A stretch of 64,000 bases of DNA from Thermoactinomycetaceae bacterium. Its GTDB lineage: Bacteria; Bacillota; Bacilli; Thermoactinomycetales; Thermoactinomycetaceae. The stretch covers positions 1 to 64,000 of the forward strand of contig JANWIG010000026.1 of assembly GCA_025449975.1 (NCBI GenBank), given 5' to 3'. The notes under the pieces were generated by a model, which saw only the letters and a program-made list of their open reading frames with translations, did no database searches and was not told where the DNA came from. Each line of letters begins with the position of its first letter. Within the stretch, counting starts at the first letter, position 1. This document shows, piece after piece, positions 21,801 to 57,429 of this stretch. The translations under genes were made by a program, and so were the position numbers.

Positions 21801-21997
21801 TTATCCACAGGTTATCCACAAAAAACACAAAGTGTGGATAAAAATTGTTTATTATCCACACTTTATTCACAAGTTATCCACAAGAAAACTCTACGATGTC
21901 ATATATTATTAACATAATCACTGTAATTAGTGAATATAAATATATTATTCACAAATATCGAGTCGCCAAGGAAATAGTTATCCACATATTATTCACA
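21801..21997. other. Cluster of nine DnaA-box-like 9-mers
   Basis: Six perfect TTATCCACA boxes (21801, 21812, 21833 reverse, 21852, 21874, 21978) and three TTATTCACA variants (21863, 21945, 21989) lie within 197 bases. The rest is very AT-rich. This is about 18 kb from the dnaA-flanking origin. It could titrate DnaA, control initiation timing, or be a remnant origin of an integrated replicon next to the ribbon-helix-helix gene. Confidence 0.85.
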
Positions 21998-40166: not shown

Positions 40167-41492
40167 TTAGTATCCTCGACGGATTCTTTTTTTCAATGTG
40201 TCGATGACGTGTTGTAATTGAGAATCATTTTTTAATAACCGATTAATCTTTTCGTGAGCATGAATCACTGTCGTATGATCACGCCCACCAAAATCCTCCC
40301 CGATTCTTGGTAGGGAGAAGTCAGTAAGTTCGCGACAGAGATACATCGCGATTTGTCTAGGGAAGGCAACCGTCTTCGTACGTTTCTTACTTTTTAAGTC
40401 CTCTAAGCGCAGATGGTAATAATTACATACTTCTTGTTGGATATGCTCAATACCTACTACAGGCGGAGCGCTGGAAGAAATAATATCTTTCAATGCTTCT
40501 TGGGCTAAAGCTTCATCGATCGGCTGATTCATTAAAGCGGAATAGGCGACCACACGAATCAGGGCTCCTTCTAATTCGCGGATGTTGGTATCCACAAGAT
40601 CGGCGATATAAGCGAGAACGTTGCCAGGCACATTGAGGTTATCAGCGATCGCTTTTTTACGAAGAATGGCGATCCGTGTTTCAAGATCAGGTGGTTGAAC
40701 ATCGGTGATCAGCCCCCACTCAAATCGGGAACGCAAACGGTCTTCTAAGTCATCGATTTCTTTAGGAGGACGGTCACTTGAGATAATGATTTGTTTGTTG
40801 TGTTCATGCAGAGTGTTAAAAGTGTGGAAAAATTCTTCTTGGGTTTGTTCTTTTCCAGCTAAAAATTGAATATCGTCTATTAACAAGATATCCACAGAAC
40901 GGTATTTATTGCGGAAAGTTTCGGCTTTGTTATCACGAATCGCATTGATAAATTCGTTGGTAAATTTCTCGGATGATAGATAGACGACTCGGCTTGAGGG
41001 TGAATGGGCTTGTACATAATGGCCGATGGCGTGCATCAGATGTGTCTTACCTAGTCCAACACCACCATAAATAAAAAGAGGATTGTAGGCTTGTGCAGGT
41101 GCTTCAGCGACAGCCAATGAAGCAGCATGGGCAAACCGATTACCGGAGCCAATCACAAATGTTTCGAATGTATAGCGTGGATTTAATTGAGATTGTGGAG
41201 GCTCTTGTATGTGAATATCTTCTCCTTTTTTCGCGGATTTGGACATTTCATCGCTAGTAAAGTTGAGCTTGATATCGGTTCCAGTCATTGCATGTAAGGT
41301 GGAATGAATAATGTTGGTATAGCGGGATTCAAGCCATTCGCGGGCAAATTCGCTAGGAGTGGAAATCGTCAAAACGTTATTTTCGAAGGAAATCGCTTTG
41401 GTCGCTTTAAGCCAAGTTTCAAAACTGGGTTTGCTCACCTGGTCTTGAAGCACTTCTAACGTTCTGGTCCATAATTCTTGAATGTGATCCAC
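40167..41492 (-). CDS. dnaA: Chromosomal replication initiator DnaA
   Basis: 441 residues. Domain I at 1-75 ([22 protein letters not shown]) is followed by a short linker. The AAA+ domain III has Walker [11 protein letters not shown], Walker [15 protein letters not shown] and the arginine-finger helix [10 protein letters not shown]. Domain IV carries the DNA-binding signature [16 protein letters not shown]. The start is GTG with AAGGAGG 7 bases upstream. It binds the 9-mers on either side of its own gene. Confidence 0.98.
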
Positions 41493-49189: not shown

Positions 49190-51805
49190 TTATCCTAAGT
49201 TATTAATTAGATTATGCAATCCACGTAAGGCAATTTTTCTTTTTTCGATTTTGTTTAGTTCCTGACGCTTACGGCTGCTGTGTGAGAATGGGGTAAAGAA
49301 GTCTTCCCACTGATTGTAACCATAAGCATCTTCAAACTCGATCGTATCCCGTTTTAACGGATGAGAGCTATTGTTTTGTTCCTCTTGAGTTTGAGGGTCG
49401 TTGGTCTCATACGGGCTGTTTACGAGTTCTTCTACTTCTTCTTGTGGGGGCATTTGGTTCATATGCATCGACGTTTGTGTAAAGTTATTCTGCGTTGATG
49501 CAAAGGATGTTTGCGAAAAATTGGTGTTTCTTGTAGAGCTTTGTGTTTGATTGGCTGTGTGCATTTGGTTTTGTAGTGGTCGACTAGCGATATTGGCAAA
49601 TAAACGGTTTTTCTTTTTTGCCCGCGATCGGCGTCTGGAAGTGAAAGTTTCTATTGTTCCCGTCTCAATAAATTCTTCTTGTCTTTCCTTCTGCATCGAT
49701 GGATTTTCAGATGGACGGAGTGTATTTTCCTTTTGTGTCTCCATAGGTCTAAAAGGAGATTCAAAGGACTGCTCTGTTTGCATTTCAGTTGTTTGATTTC
49801 CTCTCATCTGCCCTCTAGCAAAAGGTGACTGGAAAGAGGATTCTTGTTTAAACTCGATCGATTGTTGTCCTCTAGCAAAAGGTGATTGGAAAGGAGCATC
49901 TTTAAATTCGATCGGTTGTTCGATTTGCTGGTTTACTTGCCCTTTCGCAAAAGGTGATTGGAAAGAGGCTTCTTGCGTAGCTTCCGCTGGCTGTTCATTG
50001 CTTTCTTCCACTTGTTCTTTTGCAAAAGGTGACTGGAAGGCAGTTTCTTGCTTAATCTCAGTTGACTGATCGTTGCTTTCTTCCATTTGTTCTTTTGCAA
50101 AAGGTGACTGGAAGGCAGTTTCTTGCTTAATCTCAGTTGACTGATCGTTGCTTTCTTCCATTTGCTTTCTGGCAAAAGGTGATTGGTACGAAGCTTCTTG
50201 TCTCGTTTCAGCCGATTGCTCATTGGATTCTTCTGTTTGTTCTTTCGCAAAAGACGATTGAAAAGATAGATTTTGTGTTTGAAAAAAGGGGGATTGAGTT
50301 GTATTGAGTTGAAACGTCTCTTCTGAAGAAGTGCTATTCCCCGTTTTCTCCTGATCCAATGATTCATTATGAGATTGGTAAGATAGAGAATGGCGACTCC
50401 TACCCAACATTTTTTTACGTAACTTTAACTCACGGCTATAAGTTTCTTGTTTTGACTGATTTGCTTGGCTAATAAATGGATTCATAGAGATGATCTCATT
50501 TGGCTCTTTTTCTTTTCTGTTATTTTCCATATTTTCGAATGCAGATTTTTCTGTTGCGGAAGTCTCTTTTGCCTCCAATTGATGCTTTCTGCGGAATAGC
50601 TTTTTCCTGAGTGAAAATCCTCTGGGTTCAAAAGGTGATTCTCTTTTCTCTTTGAATAATTGGTTTGTTAGATTTTGGCGACTCCCTGCAAGATAGTTGT
50701 CTTCCTCTGTAATGGTTGACTTTTCCTTGGTAGTAGTTGAAAAAATTTCTGTTTTTATGCTAGCAAAGTCGGTTGCTTGTCCTTCCGTGTGATCGGGCGA
50801 AGCAAACTTATCTTTTTCTACTTCTTCGCTTTGGTTGTTTTCAACGGTCGATTGTTGCTTACTCACTTCAACAGCTGGTTCATTTATAGAGATGCTTTCC
50901 TCTTCCAAGGATGGCCCAGGTTGATCGATCATCTCGTCTTCTTCAATCGGCGTAGCTTTTGGTTTTGTTAAATGGTCGTTCGGAACAAACTCTTCGGAAA
51001 TAGTATATTCTTGTAGAGAAAATGGGTTTCCGTTCATTTGTTGTACCGACGACGCATTCGGTATAAATTCTTCAGCAGTGATCGGCTCATGCTGCATCGG
51101 CTCTTCCGTAAGATCCACTGTTCCAGCTATTTTATCATGATCGCTTTCTTCAAGGTCCAGAGGTGATTTTTCTGTATCGATTTCTTCAGCCGTGTTCAAT
51201 TCTTCACTTTCGAACTCCTCTTCTTCAGCCGCAGCGACTTCATTTTCGAAATTATGATTTTCTTCTATGGTTGCTTCTTCACTATTCTCTTTTCCAGGAA
51301 TTTCCTCCGATAGATCCTCTAAAATTTCTTCAGCCGTTACTTCAATCTCTACATTTGAATCATCTAACTCTTGGTTTTCTTCGATGGAGTCCTCTGTGTT
51401 TAATCCGCTCTCTAGGGAAGATTCTTCTACTTTTTCGAGAATCGCTTCTACTTCATGGATTTCTTCCTCTACATCTTTTACCTTTTCCTCTGTGTGAATG
51501 TTTACTTCATGCTGAACGGGTTTGGATTGAAACAAGTACGTTTTTAATTCATATAAGGAAGTATTTAATGATTGTGTATGAACGAATAATTTTACCGGGG
51601 ATTGCTTTCTACAGACTTCTTCGGAATCATTCACTGGTACTTGTAAACTCATGGAAGCTATTAAATTGGATTGTAAATCAATATATAATACTTTTTTTCC
51701 CTGTTCTTCTAAAGTTTGAATAGCTGTTTCTCCGTGATCCCCGGAACCTAATACAATGAGATCAAATTCATTTAATGACATGATTTTCTCTGCTACTAAA
51801 AACAT
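49190..51805 (-). CDS. Large acidic low-complexity protein with FQSPFA repeats
   Basis: 871 residues and no known family. The N-terminus (about 10-45, FDLIVLGSGDHGETAIQTLEEQGKKV) looks like the first strand-turn-helix of a nucleotide-binding Rossmann fold, but only about 100 residues look folded. About 110-330 is a Glu-rich segment. A middle part contains RKKLFRRKH and RKKMLGRSRH type basic patches. Eight repeats of FQSPFA(K/R) type follow (about 500-690), then a basic SRRRSRAKKKNRLF patch, a Gln/Asn/Thr-rich tail and a helical end (ELNKIEKRKIALRGLHNLINNLG). It is probably a disordered scaffold. It is encoded against the replication direction, downstream of the actin-like gene. Confidence 0.8.
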   Translation of the reverse strand: MFLVAEKIMSLNEFDLIVLGSGDHGETAIQTLEEQGKKVLYIDLQSNLIASMSLQVPVNDSEEVCRKQSPVKLFVHTQSLNTSLYELKTYLFQSKPVQHEVNIHTEEKVKDVEEEIHEVEAILEKVEESSLESGLNTEDSIEENQELDDSNVEIEVTAEEILEDLSEEIPGKENSEEATIEENHNFENEVAAAEEEEFESEELNTAEEIDTEKSPLDLEESDHDKIAGTVDLTEEPMQHEPITAEEFIPNASSVQQMNGNPFSLQEYTISEEFVPNDHLTKPKATPIEEDEMIDQPGPSLEEESISINEPAVEVSKQQSTVENNQSEEVEKDKFASPDHTEGQATDFASIKTEIFSTTTKEKSTITEEDNYLAGSRQNLTNQLFKEKRESPFEPRGFSLRKKLFRRKHQLEAKETSATEKSAFENMENNRKEKEPNEIISMNPFISQANQSKQETYSRELKLRKKMLGRSRHSLSYQSHNESLDQEKTGNSTSSEETFQLNTTQSPFFQTQNLSFQSSFAKEQTEESNEQSAETRQEASYQSPFARKQMEESNDQSTEIKQETAFQSPFAKEQMEESNDQSTEIKQETAFQSPFAKEQVEESNEQPAEATQEASFQSPFAKGQVNQQIEQPIEFKDAPFQSPFARGQQSIEFKQESSFQSPFARGQMRGNQTTEMQTEQSFESPFRPMETQKENTLRPSENPSMQKERQEEFIETGTIETFTSRRRSRAKKKNRLFANIASRPLQNQMHTANQTQSSTRNTNFSQTSFASTQNNFTQTSMHMNQMPPQEEVEELVNSPYETNDPQTQEEQNNSSHPLKRDTIEFEDAYGYNQWEDFFTPFSHSSRKRQELNKIEKRKIALRGLHNLINNLG
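49800..50290 (-). repeat. Tandem coding repeats, 75-bp unit in the best copies
   Basis: Eight units encode FQSPFA-type peptides. Units starting at about 50036 and 50111 are offset by exactly 75 bp and nearly identical, showing recent in-frame duplication. Outer copies are more diverged or shortened. This is protein-coding repetition, not a CRISPR array. Confidence 0.85.
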
Positions 51806-52046
51806 AGAGCCTTGTCCTTTTGAGATGGACCCGACCGCAGTTTTAGGATGAAAATATTCCTAATAAAATTACGTTCTATTAAGTAGGACTTCTTCCTATG
51901 TTTTTAGTAACAGTTTGGCACCTCCTCCAAAAAGGTTTTTCTACTTAACTTCTTCATTTATTATCTCTTTTTTTATCTACTATGGCTAGCTCCAATTTAT
52001 ATTGTTGTTTTTTCGTTACTCTTTTTCTCACATTTTATCTAAAATT
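51806..52046. other. Intergenic region before the repeat-protein gene
   Basis: About 240 bases with A/T runs and no ORF. On the minus strand GGAGGAGGTG occurs near 51918-51927 but leads into a very short frame. No firm promoter was found, so read-through from the actin-like gene is possible. Confidence 0.4.
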
Positions 52047-52077
52047 AATACCCCCAAAATTTATTTCTGGGGGTATA
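52047..52077 (-). terminator. Hairpin after the actin-like gene
   Basis: ATACCCCCA pairs with TGGGGGTAT on the minus strand, followed by a modest T-rich stretch (TAATTTT). It may be a partial terminator between the actin-like and repeat-protein genes. Confidence 0.55.
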
Positions 52078-52083
52078 AAACAA

Positions 52084-53274
52084 TTATTTTTTTACTGACT
52101 TTTGTTTTTTTGTACTCACGGGTTCATTGGCAGAATCTGAAACAGTAAACTCTTGTTGAATCGTTGCAGCGGCTTCAAGTAGATCTTTGACGGGGACAGA
52201 TTTCGACTTAGACTGGGCAAATTTACATAATCCGAAAGCGTTGGCAAATTGTGCTTCAATCCCATAATCCTCTGCAAATATTAATTTTTCACCAAACCGT
52301 TCGCGATAGTATGGTTTAAATGGAATCGAGGCGCCCCCTGTTAGAATGATATAGGTAATATCGTCGCCATAGTCTAATCGGTTCCATACTTCGTCTACTA
52401 AGTTTTCTCCCACTTCTTTAATGCAGTCGTGAACCAATTGGCTTACATCATGTAATTTTCCTTTAAAACTAATTTCACCAGAACTCACAATTCTTGGAAG
52501 GCTCCAAATTGGGTATTCTTTCCCTGTTTGGTCAAGGTCTACAGAACGGGTAAATTCTAGCAACCGCTTCGCTAACAATTGGTAGACAGATAACATTGCA
52601 AAACGGGAGGTAAAGCTTTGCCGTTTAATGATCGTTTCCCCATGTAAAGTTTCAATATCTGAAGTACCGAAGCCTAAGTCATTGATACTTACCTTTTGAA
52701 TAAACAAATCCTCGTTCAAAAGATTTCCATCGCGATCCAAAGCAATATGGAACAAGGTTGCCATCGGTTGACTAATTACAAATAAGTTTTCCTTTTTAAT
52801 TTCAAATTCAACTCTTCTATAAGGTAGGTTTCCTTGTTTTACTTCGAAACGATGTTTTCCGATCAGTCTTCTTTTTAACTCATCTTTGTAATCGATGTAA
52901 CTATCTGTTGGAAGAGCTACAGAAACAATCGGCTCTGTATTTCCTTGCAACATGAGACCTGTACCAACACGGAACATAATCAAGTATTCTTGTTCACGAA
53001 ACCAGGTTGGACTAAAGAGACGACGTTTATGAGAGTCAAAAAGCTCATCATCGCCTGATTGTTCAATAGCTAATTTACCGACAAACCACTCGCGGTCGCC
53101 TTCTACTTCTCGGTACATGATATTATGTGGGTCATTGTTATAAGTAATTTCACCTACACGGTTTGGAACTACCATGTTGCGAATAAACATTTTGTAAAAT
53201 TTGCCTTTTGCACGGCTGACAACTTTGTTTCCATAATAGCCTTGGTCATTACCTATATATACAGGCACACTCAT
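52084..53274 (-). CDS. Actin-like ATPase, ParM/Alp type
   Basis: 396 residues with the actin fold order. Phosphate-1 loop: GNDQGYYGNK (8-17). Phosphate-2 loop: NDLGFGTSD (198-206). Adenosine motif: ILTGGASIPFK (310-320). C-terminal helix region: YGIEAQFANAFGLCKFA (337-353). Such proteins polymerise with ATP, and on plasmids (ParM, AlfA, Alp7A) they push or pull DNA. MreB-type features are not evident. GGAGG precedes the ATG by about 9 bases and a sigma-A promoter stands upstream. A ParR-like adaptor is not adjacent; the next gene is the FQSPFA repeat protein. A chromosomal actin-like protein beside oriC, a parS site and noc is unusual. Confidence 0.85.
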   Translation of the reverse strand: MSVPVYIGNDQGYYGNKVVSRAKGKFYKMFIRNMVVPNRVGEITYNNDPHNIMYREVEGDREWFVGKLAIEQSGDDELFDSHKRRLFSPTWFREQEYLIMFRVGTGLMLQGNTEPIVSVALPTDSYIDYKDELKRRLIGKHRFEVKQGNLPYRRVEFEIKKENLFVISQPMATLFHIALDRDGNLLNEDLFIQKVSINDLGFGTSDIETLHGETIIKRQSFTSRFAMLSVYQLLAKRLLEFTRSVDLDQTGKEYPIWSLPRIVSSGEISFKGKLHDVSQLVHDCIKEVGENLVDEVWNRLDYGDDITYIILTGGASIPFKPYYRERFGEKLIFAEDYGIEAQFANAFGLCKFAQSKSKSVPVKDLLEAAATIQQEFTVSDSANEPVSTKKQKSVKK

Positions 53275-53307: not shown

Positions 53308-53337
53308 ATTCTATCAATAGCTAATGATAGGGGTCAA
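53308..53337 (-). promoter_or_regulatory. Sigma-A promoter of the actin-like gene
   Basis: TTGACC (53332-53337) and TAGAAT (53308-53313) are spaced by 18 bases on the minus strand, about 34 bases upstream of the start codon. Confidence 0.65.
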
Positions 53338-53707
53338 TAAGCTATATTGGATTGTTGCATTCTATTCTATTACTTTTTTTTAAAAGTTTACTGAAAAAGT
53401 TTACTGTCTTCTCGCTGACAGTGTCCCATCAATGGGTGAGTAGGAGATTTGGATTCAAATGCTGGAGTTCAAGGACGTTGAATGCAATGTTTCACGTGAA
53501 ACATTTAGCAGGTAGTTATTAGATGGTAGCGAAATAGTATATTAAATTGTTTTTTATTTTATCATGTTGTTTAAATCGATCGCAATTTATTTATACTTAA
53601 CTTCAATTTGTTTTTAATTTAAAAAAACAAAAAGTAGATGTAGAGTGTTAAGCAACAGATCTTACTTGATTTTTGTGTTGGTTTACTTAACACTTCGATT
53701 CCAGCAC
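53338..53707. other. Divergent intergenic region between the actin-like gene and noc
   Basis: AT-rich. It contains AAAGTTTACTG twice (about 53385 and 53396), an inverted pair GTGTTAAG/CTTAACAC (about 53647 and 53687), and one parS site. The noc promoter should be in the last 100 bases, but no strong match was found. Confidence 0.5.
53488..53503. promoter_or_regulatory. parS: parS site (perfect)
   Basis: TGTTTCACGTGAAACA fits the known 16-base parS consensus TGTTnCACGTGAAACA exactly. ParB encoded at 57.4 kb is expected to load here. The site lies between the actin-like gene and noc. Confidence 0.95.
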
Positions 53708-54784: not shown

Positions 54785-57429
54785 ATGGGAAGGATTATCG
54801 CAATTGCAAATCAAAAAGGTGGAGTTGGTGTGCGTCCGTAAGGATCAGTGAATATCGCCTGGTAGCAGGTTAGGATTAGAGAGGGATCCTATGGCTAACT
54901 GACTTACCTGAGATGGAAACATCAAAGGGGAACATAGCATGTCAGTAAAGCATGTGCTTTGCGAAATTAGCTAGCAATTCGACATGCCAAGCCAACGGAG
55001 TGATATGGTTAAAGCTAGACTGCTTGAATCCTAGTTCCTTGGGCCTGAACCACCGGGGTGTACGAAAGCTAATTGTTACGTACATGGGAGGGATTGCAAA
55101 GGATTTTACCAACGTCTTTTGCACTCTCTATCTCTCCACAGCGTATCGAGCGATACGTAAAAGGAGCGAACGGGGACCTACGTCACTCCCTTCTATATTC
55201 ACTTGGTCTAAACGGAGACAGCCTACGGTAAATGATTTATTTTACTATGGCTGCGGAGTCTTCATAGTAGTCTGAGATTGGGAAAGCCAATTACATGGCG
55301 AAGGAAGACAGGTTGTCAAGTGGATAATATTACGGAGGTATGTGAAATGCAAAGCGCCGAAGTAATTTTATCGATACTAGGTCAAAAATCGCGAGAGAAT
55401 CCCCACTACGTATTTAGACGTCTTTATCGTTATTTATTTCAACCTGAATTCTGCTTATATGTTCAACAGAAAGCCTCTTTACAAATCGAATCAAGCGATT
55501 TGGATCAGTTGATTCAACAGTTACGTTCTGAACGATACGATCCATCGGAGAAAAACGAAGGTCAGGATGTAGACCAGTTAGTTCAAGAAATGCTTTACTT
55601 ACTCCTTCTGACTATCTACCAACCCCTTTTGGTCCAGATCCGTCAACCCAAAAGAAAGATTCCGGAGCTCTTAACTAGGATCGAGTTAGCAGCGAAAAAT
55701 TGCCATTGGGTGTTCGGAGCTAAAATCAAAACCCTTTCGTCTCGCTTTCCTATTGCATTCCTTTTTCAAACGATGAGAGAAAAGATCGAAGATGGTCGTC
55801 TATTGGAACTGATCAGGCGCTTTCTACTTGTATTTCAGAAGCAGGGAGATCAAGGCGAAAAAAAAGAAGCTACAAAGCTATTCTTGTTGCTAAAGGATCT
55901 TTGCCTATTATCCTTGGACCGTTTTATAGAGCAGCTAAATCAGGAATTACTACCCAACAGTCAAGTGAATTATGTCCGCTGGGGAGAAGAATTTCTGATT
56001 TTTGTCAAAGGGACGAAAAGGATTGCTAAGCAGATGAGAGATAAGATTGCCTTTTTTTTGGGACAAAACGGATTCCGACTGGAAGAGGAAAAGTTGACGG
56101 TTCGATCACTTCGAGAGAAAGGGATCCTTTTTATGAACTATCAGCTGATTCAGTCTTCAAAAGGAAAGCTGCTTTTTCTTATTCCTCACCAAATCATTCA
56201 ACAACGTTTATCTCCTTTCTTAAAGAATGGGAAGTCGACCCATCACAGAAGGAGAATTCATCTGCCTGTGCAGGAGATGATCAAGCAGTATAATGATGAA
56301 ATAAGTGGTCTATATCACTACTATCGTTTTGCTCATGATGTAAAAAAGAAATTGGGGAAGTTTCGTTATTATCATTTTGGAAGCTTGCTTAAAACAATTG
56401 CTCGAAAAGAGCAATGTTCTGTTAAACAAGTCCTAAGGAAATACGGTGTTCGTCCAATGCAGAAGGGGAAAGCAACCATCCAAATGAATTACATAGACGC
56501 CAATCGAAGAGAAAAAAAGATTTCTTATTTTATGAAGCCATTCAAACGAACAACCGACTTGATCGGATCATAAAGGACTGGATTCTCGCAATGGATTTGA
56601 GTTGACCTAGTGACAACCGGAGAGCCGAATACATCGAAAGGTGTACGTTCGGTTCGGAGGGGGACAGATGGAAACCGATGTTTCATCAGGCGCTATCTGT
56701 CTACCCTACAAAACGACAACGGCAATTAATTTAGCAGCTTGCCTAGCTTCCATGGGACGAAAAGTCCTGTTAGTGGATATTGATCCACAAGGAAATACGA
56801 CTAGCGGATTAGGGATTAATAAAAAAGATGTACAGCATTGTATCTATGACATCTTAATGAATGAAATGTCACCTAAGGAAGTGATTTTGCCAACCGAAGT
56901 TCAGAACCTGTGGATTATTCCCGCTACGCTTAAACTGGCAGGTGTGGAAATTGAACTGGCTCAGGCGATTTCTCGTGAATATCGCTTGAAGAACGCTTTA
57001 CAACAAGTTGTCAACGACTTCCACTATATCTTTATCGATTGTCCACCGTCGCTGGGAATTATCACGCTAAACTCGTTAACTGCGGCTATGACAGTGATCA
57101 TTCCCATTCAATGTGAGTTTTATGCACTGGAAGGACTCAGTCAGTTATTAAATACGATTCGTTTGGTTCAAAAGCATTTAAATAAGCATTTGCGGATTGA
57201 AGGCGTCTTATTAACCATGTTTGATAAACGAACCAACTTATCGACGCAAGTGATGGAAGAGGTTCATAAATATTTTGGATCGAAAGTATACAAAACGATG
57301 ATTCCTCGAAATGTTCGATTGAGTGAAGCGCCTAGTCATGGAAAGCCAATCGTGTTATATGATGCAAAATCAAGAGGTGCAGAGTGTTATATAGCTTTAG
57401 CGAAGGAAGTGATTCATCGTGAGCAATAA
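54785..57429 (+). CDS. parA: ParA/Soj chromosome partitioning ATPase, split by a group II intron
   Basis: Coding exons are 54785-54829 (15 codons) and 56710-57429. Joined they give a 254-residue Soj-like ATPase (B. subtilis 253). Exon 1 ends IANQKGGVG and exon 2 begins KTTTAINLAACLA, so the deviant Walker A KGGVGKTTT is restored only by splicing. Other motifs are VDIDPQGN, FIDCPPSLG and the C-terminal YDAKSRGAECYIALAKEV. Unspliced mRNA meets TAA at 54839, three codons into the intron. Soj with ParB controls origin segregation and DnaA activity. The parB start overlaps the parA stop. The gene looks intact apart from the intron, so I do not call it a pseudogene. Confidence 0.9.
55347..56573 (+). 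CDS. Intron-encoded maturase with an inactive reverse-transcriptase domain
   Basis: 408 residues. RT0-like start: NPHYVFRRLYRYLFQPEF (18-35). The fingers are shortened. The palm motif normally EGDIKG is FGAKIK (123-128), so the first catalytic Asp is Ala125. The YADD box is RWGEEF (211-216), so both Asp are Glu and Tyr is Trp. The thumb/maturase X region (about 285-370, RRRIHLPVQEMIKQYNDEISGLYHYYRFAHD) is well kept. There is no DNA-binding or HNH endonuclease end. GGAGGT lies 7 bases before ATG 55347. It most likely serves only intron splicing, like plant MatK. Confidence 0.88.
   Translation: MQSAEVILSILGQKSRENPHYVFRRLYRYLFQPEFCLYVQQKASLQIESSDLDQLIQQLRSERYDPSEKNEGQDVDQLVQEMLYLLLLTIYQPLLVQIRQPKRKIPELLTRIELAAKNCHWVFGAKIKTLSSRFPIAFLFQTMREKIEDGRLLELIRRFLLVFQKQGDQGEKKEATKLFLLLKDLCLLSLDRFIEQLNQELLPNSQVNYVRWGEEFLIFVKGTKRIAKQMRDKIAFFLGQNGFRLEEEKLTVRSLREKGILFMNYQLIQSSKGKLLFLIPHQIIQQRLSPFLKNGKSTHHRRRIHLPVQEMIKQYNDEISGLYHYYRFAHDVKKKLGKFRYYHFGSLLKTIARKEQCSVKQVLRKYGVRPMQKGKATIQMNYIDANRREKKISYFMKPFKRTTDLIGS
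56622..56655 (+). other. Group II intron domain V hairpin
   Basis: GAGCCGAA pairs with TTCGGTTC and TACATC with GGTGTA around a GAAA tetraloop, leaving a 2-nt bulge (CG). This is the catalytic metal-binding core of the ribozyme. Its perfect pairing argues that the intron still splices. Confidence 0.95.

Follow-up and report, generated by a model that had tools for sequence, protein, structure and literature searches.

In the 64,000-nucleotide stretch of a Thermoactinomycetaceae genome analysed here (hereafter the window; positions 1-64000 of contig C26, JANWIG010000026.1), a gene for a ParM/Alp-type actin-like ATPase (ALF) and an adjoining gene for a long disordered protein (REP) lie near the replication origin. 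Together with a ParR-like gene about 31 kilobases (kb) away (TARH), they suggest by their sequences a chromosome-directed, actin-based machine of a kind so far undescribed. We assign a probability of roughly one half to the reading that the three genes form one chromosomal ParMR-like system, in which filaments held by two adaptors, one of them made as sporulation begins, would position the origin region. ParM-type actins are known as movers of plasmids, and the Thermoactinomycetales are relatives of Bacillus that form endospores. Mycelial growth has been described for Thermoactinomyces (PMC7840651). What we describe in these mycelium- and endospore-forming organisms is a ParM-type actin that is kept across a whole order, tied to the origin, accompanied by two partners with a common tail and provided with a probable sporulation switch, and it offers defined genes for knockout and a defined peptide for testing.

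ALF is a ParM/Alp-type actin with a predicted intact nucleotide site

The actin-like gene and its flanking signals were mapped as follows:

52084..53274, minus strand: ALF, ParM/Alp-type actin-like ATPase of 396 residues (Pfam and PHROG matches, invariant nucleotide-site residues, 78-92% identity in the order)
53308..53337, minus strand: sigma-A-type promoter of ALF, TTGACC-18-TAGAAT (conserved in the alignment of family f1 sequences preceding ALF)
52048..52076, minus strand: hairpin CCCCCA...TGGGGG directly after ALF and before REP, terminator- or attenuator-like

ALF is a real ParM/Alp-type actin and is predicted to be catalytically intact. The original prediction had recognized an ATPase of this type by its phosphate-1, phosphate-2 and adenosine motifs, and this assignment is confirmed by two Pfam matches that both exceed the curated cut-offs (ALP_N, 3.5e-8; MreB-like_C, 1.1e-6) and by residues that are invariant in 19 aligned sequences. 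Because these residues comprise phosphate-1 (D10-x-G12..K17), the connecting Q169, phosphate-2 (D199-x-G-x-G-T-x-D206) and the adenosine residues G313-G314, the nucleotide site is intact. ALF also matched the 'partition protein' family PHROG 691 (4e-34) and, searched as a single sequence against the PDB, pSK41 ParM (0.0046); profile A1 searched against the PDB matched no actin. ALF scored below the cut-offs of the NCBIfam ParM equivalog (49.9 bits versus 417) and of the PRTRC_D model (51.2 versus 214.8 bits), and it is not a member of the NCBIfam FcmB family (E value of 0.1 and 11.5 bits versus a cut-off of 300).

ALF is the best conserved gene of its neighbourhood, exceeding MnmG, Soj, MnmE, Noc and Spo0J of the same loci (mean identities of 83.8% for ALF, 78.0% for MnmG and 67.8% for Noc). 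Its promoter is one of the highest-ranked promoter-like sites in the region, and a similar C-run/G-run hairpin follows ALF in most of the aligned f1 relatives.

REP and TARH share a bipartite C-terminal tail

REP, which adjoins ALF, ends in a tail that recurs in a second protein. A search of whole genomes with the REP-tail profile (A3) found REP and TARH, the latter at about 4e-7 to 1.5e-6 in three genomes and more weakly in others, and always in the same origin-side region. In our contig, TARH is a plus-strand gene for 198 residues at positions 83097-83693, outside the window. Conversely, a TARH profile run over the genomes returned REP as the sole second family (3.9e-7 to 1e-3). Alignment of the two tails with hhalign gave a probability of 97% (E value of 3e-11), and the real tails scored up to 30.9 bits compared to a maximum of 7.9 in 7800 shuffles. 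The claim that no ParR gene is present thus holds for the immediate neighbourhood of ALF only, the ParR-like candidate TARH being located 31 kb off on the same contig.

TARH measures 167-243 residues where its tail is complete. Its body is highly conserved (MSSITVGVYLGKKDRLVRYWYEILPKGQFPMLVKYCIQSYL...PTQRNVTFTPEDGPVYQWIKSLESGYRSEEIKNILKETVVHTLL) and is connected by a variable linker to a C-terminal tail that is conserved and bipartite, as in REP, and ends in GFSHLVNYLG. By eye, two beta-alpha-alpha units can be read in the body, either of which looks like one half of a ribbon-helix-helix dimer. In ParR, a ribbon-helix-helix domain is combined with a conserved C-terminal tail, through which the protein docks on ParM (PMC5016525). 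TARH appears to share this plan, and REP has the tail but not the body; most economically, both tails would bind ALF. The suggestion that REP might serve as an adaptor or anchor gains support from its conserved C-terminal helix, which recurs in the ParR-like TARH.

Two side observations concern relatives of these proteins. A second, shorter ParM-like protein of 275 residues is encoded at 73821-75012 of the same contig (9822-11013 of locus L156; ALP_N, 1e-18; PHROG 691, 3e-36) with a small ParR-like open reading frame (ORF) directly behind it, and its relatives occur in 31/42 genomes of the order, several within about 60 kb of ALF. Genome G003 contains three identical tail-less TARH bodies in apparent prophage copies (L189 7297-7776, L190 7336-7815 and L191 6886-7365), which may reflect acquisition of the host protein by a phage.

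REP is a disordered protein with an MnmG-like head

The features of REP are, from its N-terminus:

49190..51805, minus strand: REP, long disordered scaffold or adaptor of 871 residues, adjoining ALF (AlphaFold2)
51641..51781, minus strand: N-terminal segment from MnmG, a beta-alpha-beta unit of the flavin adenine dinucleotide (FAD) fold (Pfam GIDA, REP-N profile)
50585..50644, minus strand: basic motif 1 (SPFEPRGFSLRKKLFRRK), with basic clusters at matching places in orthologues
50399..50446, minus strand: basic motif 2 (SRELKLRKKMLGR), conserved in orthologues, predicted helix 446-467 (AlphaFold2)
49942..50266, minus strand: tandem repeat of 75 base pairs (bp) in 4.3 copies (Tandem Repeats Finder)
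49589..49651, minus strand: basic motif 3 (TSRRRSRAKKKNRLFANI), conserved in most family f1 orthologues
49193..49357, minus strand: bipartite C-terminal tail (LKRDxIEFEDxYG ... EKRKIALRGLHNLINNLG), near-invariant in orthologues and common to TARH

Since position 9 is a methionine in at least 90% of the orthologues, the true start of REP is probably at 51781. The protein has a net charge of -83, and its AlphaFold2 model is folded at the two ends and in one basic helix only, with a predicted local distance difference test (pLDDT) score of about 90 for both the N-terminal segment and the C-terminal helix; a Foldseek search with this model returned nothing at an E value of 0.001 or below. Between the ends runs a mostly acidic, disordered linker that carries the conserved basic motifs. 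The description of REP as an acidic repeat protein of 871 residues was borne out in length, acidity and the presence of repeats; the repeats themselves are peculiar to the species. Orthologues from the same genus have 517 and 520 residues, i.e. are 350 residues shorter, REP lengths by blast range from 353 to 871 residues, and on this comparison the tandem repeats are a species-specific expansion. A functional importance of the repeats was rejected, as they are not conserved in orthologues.

REP appears to be a new gene built partly from a piece of a neighbour. Pfam GIDA (MnmG) was the best family in 6/10 REP orthologues (up to 3.5e-9, profile positions 1-47 of 391), and a REP-N profile search matched MnmG proteins at about 1e-12. 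The likely source of the head is mnmG itself, two genes away. About 50 residues of MnmG are retained, and the FAD glycine motif is degenerate in many orthologues, which argues that the head is a fold fragment rather than an enzyme. Upstream of REP we noted by eye a conserved CTAGC...GATAATA element; given this element and the hairpin that follows ALF, REP may be transcribed apart from ALF. The REP leader near the start codon also contains an inverted repeat of 18 nucleotides (51790-51913 of the window; 94% complementary, 88 nucleotides between the arms).

The three genes are present or absent together

ALF was found in 38/42 genomes of the order, with 78-92% identity; the four genomes without it are two drafts of about 67% completeness and both members of family f2. 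No ALF orthologue was found in the other genomes of the class that were sampled, and matches in the phylum were weak (best 8.7e-23 versus about 1e-258). The nearest relatives outside the order are ParM-like proteins of SPO1-type phages and of plasmids, with 23-28% identity. The original prediction had named beforehand a failure of ALF and REP to co-occur in relatives as the outcome that would speak against it, and we found their synteny conserved in 36/36 loci: in 35 by blast and in the last (G009, locus L049) by inspection, where REP is reduced to 227 residues, keeping the tail but lacking an MnmG-like head, and stays next to ALF though noc and soj are no longer adjacent. TARH is present in 40/42 genomes of the order, at a distance of 25-40 kb from ALF in 37/38 genomes, and is absent only from the two f2 genomes, which also lack ALF and REP. 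Neither TARH nor the REP tail was found in the sampled genomes of the class and phylum beyond the order, and TARH had no match in viral contigs, phages or plasmids.

Among 40 near-complete genomes, all three genes are thus present in the 38 that do not belong to f2 and absent from both that do. In a midpoint-rooted MnmG tree, one supported branch divides the 36 ALF carriers from the class outgroups and f2, and a single change is thus enough to account for the presence of ALF. The simplest reading is that the system was gained once, at the base of the mycelial Thermoactinomycetales clade.

A Spo0A box precedes TARH

A Spo0A box, TTCGACA (TGTCGAA on the opposite strand), lies 100-210 bp before the TARH start in 29/29 chromosomal loci from five families, compared to a background of 0.044 per 400 bp, and in family f1 a conserved -35 element follows it. 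TARH is therefore apparently controlled by Spo0A and would be switched on at the onset of sporulation, which supports the proposed link of the system to spores. The family f1 sequences upstream of ALF yielded no Spo0A box, on which basis the two genes may be regulated separately, with the filament made always and the adaptor at sporulation onset.

Ahead of TARH, most f1 genomes also conserve a dyad, ACATGC-N5-GCATGT, with a T run and TCGTTTTCG behind it (about 945-1000 of locus L157). This dyad was seen nowhere else in the long loci read and is a candidate autoregulatory operator; tried as a possible binding site, it showed no excess in the window.

A model for origin coupling and its alternatives

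We propose that ALF would be made constitutively and would polymerise with ATP. TARH would bind origin-proximal DNA through its ribbon-helix-helix-like body, possibly with two units per chain as its sequence pattern suggests, and its C-terminal tail would dock on ALF filaments as that of ParR does on ParM. Control of TARH by Spo0A, to which the conserved box points, could then couple ALF filaments to the origin region when hyphae begin sporulating, the presumed target being an origin region that needs entrapment in the spore. REP, with the same tail, a flexible linker bearing basic motifs and a head derived from MnmG, could act as a second adaptor that tethers, bundles or anchors the filaments. 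More tentatively, we put forward a narrower proposal: in sporulating hyphae, the origin region would be moved or anchored by ALF filaments by way of TARH, as a DNA-binding adaptor switched by Spo0A, and of REP, as a second scaffold, the two sharing one filament site or competing for it.

Several observations weigh against a single ParMR-like system. For ALF, AlphaFold2 gave a poor model (pLDDT of 44 with 19 close orthologues), a result attributable to the shallow alignment. TARH has no match in Pfam, NCBIfam, PHROG or the PDB, its two halves could not be aligned by hhalign to each other or to the ParR-like ORF, and in G009 and parts of families f3, f4 and f6 its tail is weak, partly degenerate or lacking. 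A search for parC-like iterons beside ALF, REP and TARH found none. Binding of the tails to ALF, rather than to another shared partner, is what we infer. Moreover, with a single gain the co-occurrence of three genes amounts to one event and draws its strength from their joint retention since.

The main rival explanation, which we judge unlikely, is that a ParMR-type pair became a cortical filament for the shape or branching of hyphae, as for FcmB/FcmC. TARH and REP would then cap the filaments or link them to the machinery of the wall, with DNA binding secondary or lost. The system does coincide with the clade of mycelial genera, the conserved sigma-A-type promoter of ALF suggests expression during growth, iterons were not found beside the three genes, and there is a precedent in FcmB, a chromosomal ParM relative of filamentous but not unicellular cyanobacteria (PMC12645912). 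By contrast, the Spo0A box at all 29 TARH loci points to sporulation, all three genes remain near oriC although a filament directed at the wall would not require such proximity, and ALF fails the FcmB model (11.5 bits versus 300). We favour origin positioning over a shape-determining role on account of the Spo0A box and of the persistent linkage to the origin.

A quite improbable alternative is that the tail binds some other shared partner (e.g. DivIVA, Soj, Spo0J or SMC), in which case ALF would be a mere neighbour of REP, and REP and TARH a pair of tethers unrelated to filaments. The interaction of the tail with ALF is indeed deduced, TARH is not adjacent to ALF, and soj, spo0J and parS are next door; yet REP remains beside ALF even in G009, whose noc and soj have lost their adjacency, none of the 40 near-complete genomes has one or two of the three genes without the rest, and a disordered linker followed by a conserved tail is the architecture of ParR-kind adaptors of actin filaments. 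Least probable of all, in our estimation, is that ALF and REP are a domesticated remnant of a plasmid or phage partition locus that does nothing for the chromosome and persists through drift or as a decoy for plasmids or phages. Its appeal stems from the SPO1-type phage and plasmid affinities of ALF (23-28% identity) and from the three identical prophage-like copies of a tail-less TARH relative in G003, but it fits poorly with the strong purifying selection on ALF (78-92% identity across the order), its constant location and its intact nucleotide site.

Comparison with known systems

A literature search found nothing on actin-like proteins in Thermoactinomyces. Among described systems, plasmid ParMRC (R1, pSK41) and AlfA/Alp7A resemble ours in having an ATPase of the ALP/ParM superfamily and a tailed adaptor, and partition-protein profiles match ALF. 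Unlike plasmid ParMRC, however, the ALF system is chromosomal and order-wide, its ParR-like gene is unlinked, the neighbour of ALF being REP instead, a second protein that is not a ParR shares the tail, and parC iterons were not found beside the genes; at 23-28% identity to the plasmid and phage proteins, ALF also lies far under the ParM equivalog cut-off. Chromosomal ParM-type proteins (cParM) of Desulfitobacterium, Clostridium and others are conserved there within genera and have been proposed to play a role beyond plasmids (PMC12270681). They are described as cParMR cassettes, whereas the ALF system has its genes at two places, spans the order, lies by the origin and is apparently under Spo0A control, and the text of that study does not name Thermoactinomyces or Laceyella. 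FcmB/FcmC of filamentous cyanobacteria likewise pair a chromosomal ParM-derived actin with a partner and are confined to a filamentous clade (PMC12645912), but ALF falls outside the FcmB model and is accompanied by two tailed partners and a Spo0A box.

During sporulation of B. subtilis, RacA and Soj/Spo0J trap the origin region in the spore (PMC9564211). As a sporulation-specific protein that acts on origin-proximal DNA, RacA would be the functional analogue of TARH as proposed here; unlike the ALF system, its anchoring involves no actin. Finally, SPO1 gp27.9 and related actin-like proteins of Bacillus phages are the best matches to ALF outside the order (27% identity, E value of about 1e-19). 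Unlike ALF, these are phage-encoded, and no TARH relative was found in phage records.

Genomic neighbourhood of ALF and REP

The surrounding region contains the following features:

40167-41492, minus strand: dnaA
41536-41963: oriC, dense DnaA boxes with dnaA alongside
53488..53503, no strand assigned: perfect parS, a site of the ParB/Spo0J system (context, probably outside the ALF system)
about 54785-54829: soj exon 1
55278-56573: intron-encoded protein
56620-56709: group II intron match
from about 56710: soj exon 2

Rightward of oriC, the gene order is rnpA, yidC, jag, mnmE, mnmG, rsmG, REP and ALF (on the opposite strand), noc, soj and spo0J; in the f2 genomes, rsmG directly neighbours noc with nothing in between. 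Both ORFs were recovered on the minus strand as originally placed, and with oriC on their left they are transcribed head-on to replication, as had been claimed. The perfect parS predicted just upstream was located at 53488, and a parS with at most one mismatch occurs in the corresponding gap of 27/36 relatives. We rejected this site as a component of the ALF system, as it is an ordinary ParB site of soj/spo0J.

A cluster of DnaA boxes at 21801-21978 of the window, 20 kb from oriC and outside large ORFs, holds TTATCCACA five times and once in reverse along with further near matches, and may serve to titrate or reactivate DnaA. A group II intron splits soj, the chromosomal parA gene, exactly within its Walker A codons (ANQKGGVG|KTTT); an intron occupies the identical site in 16/36 relatives, and soj is intact in most of the others.

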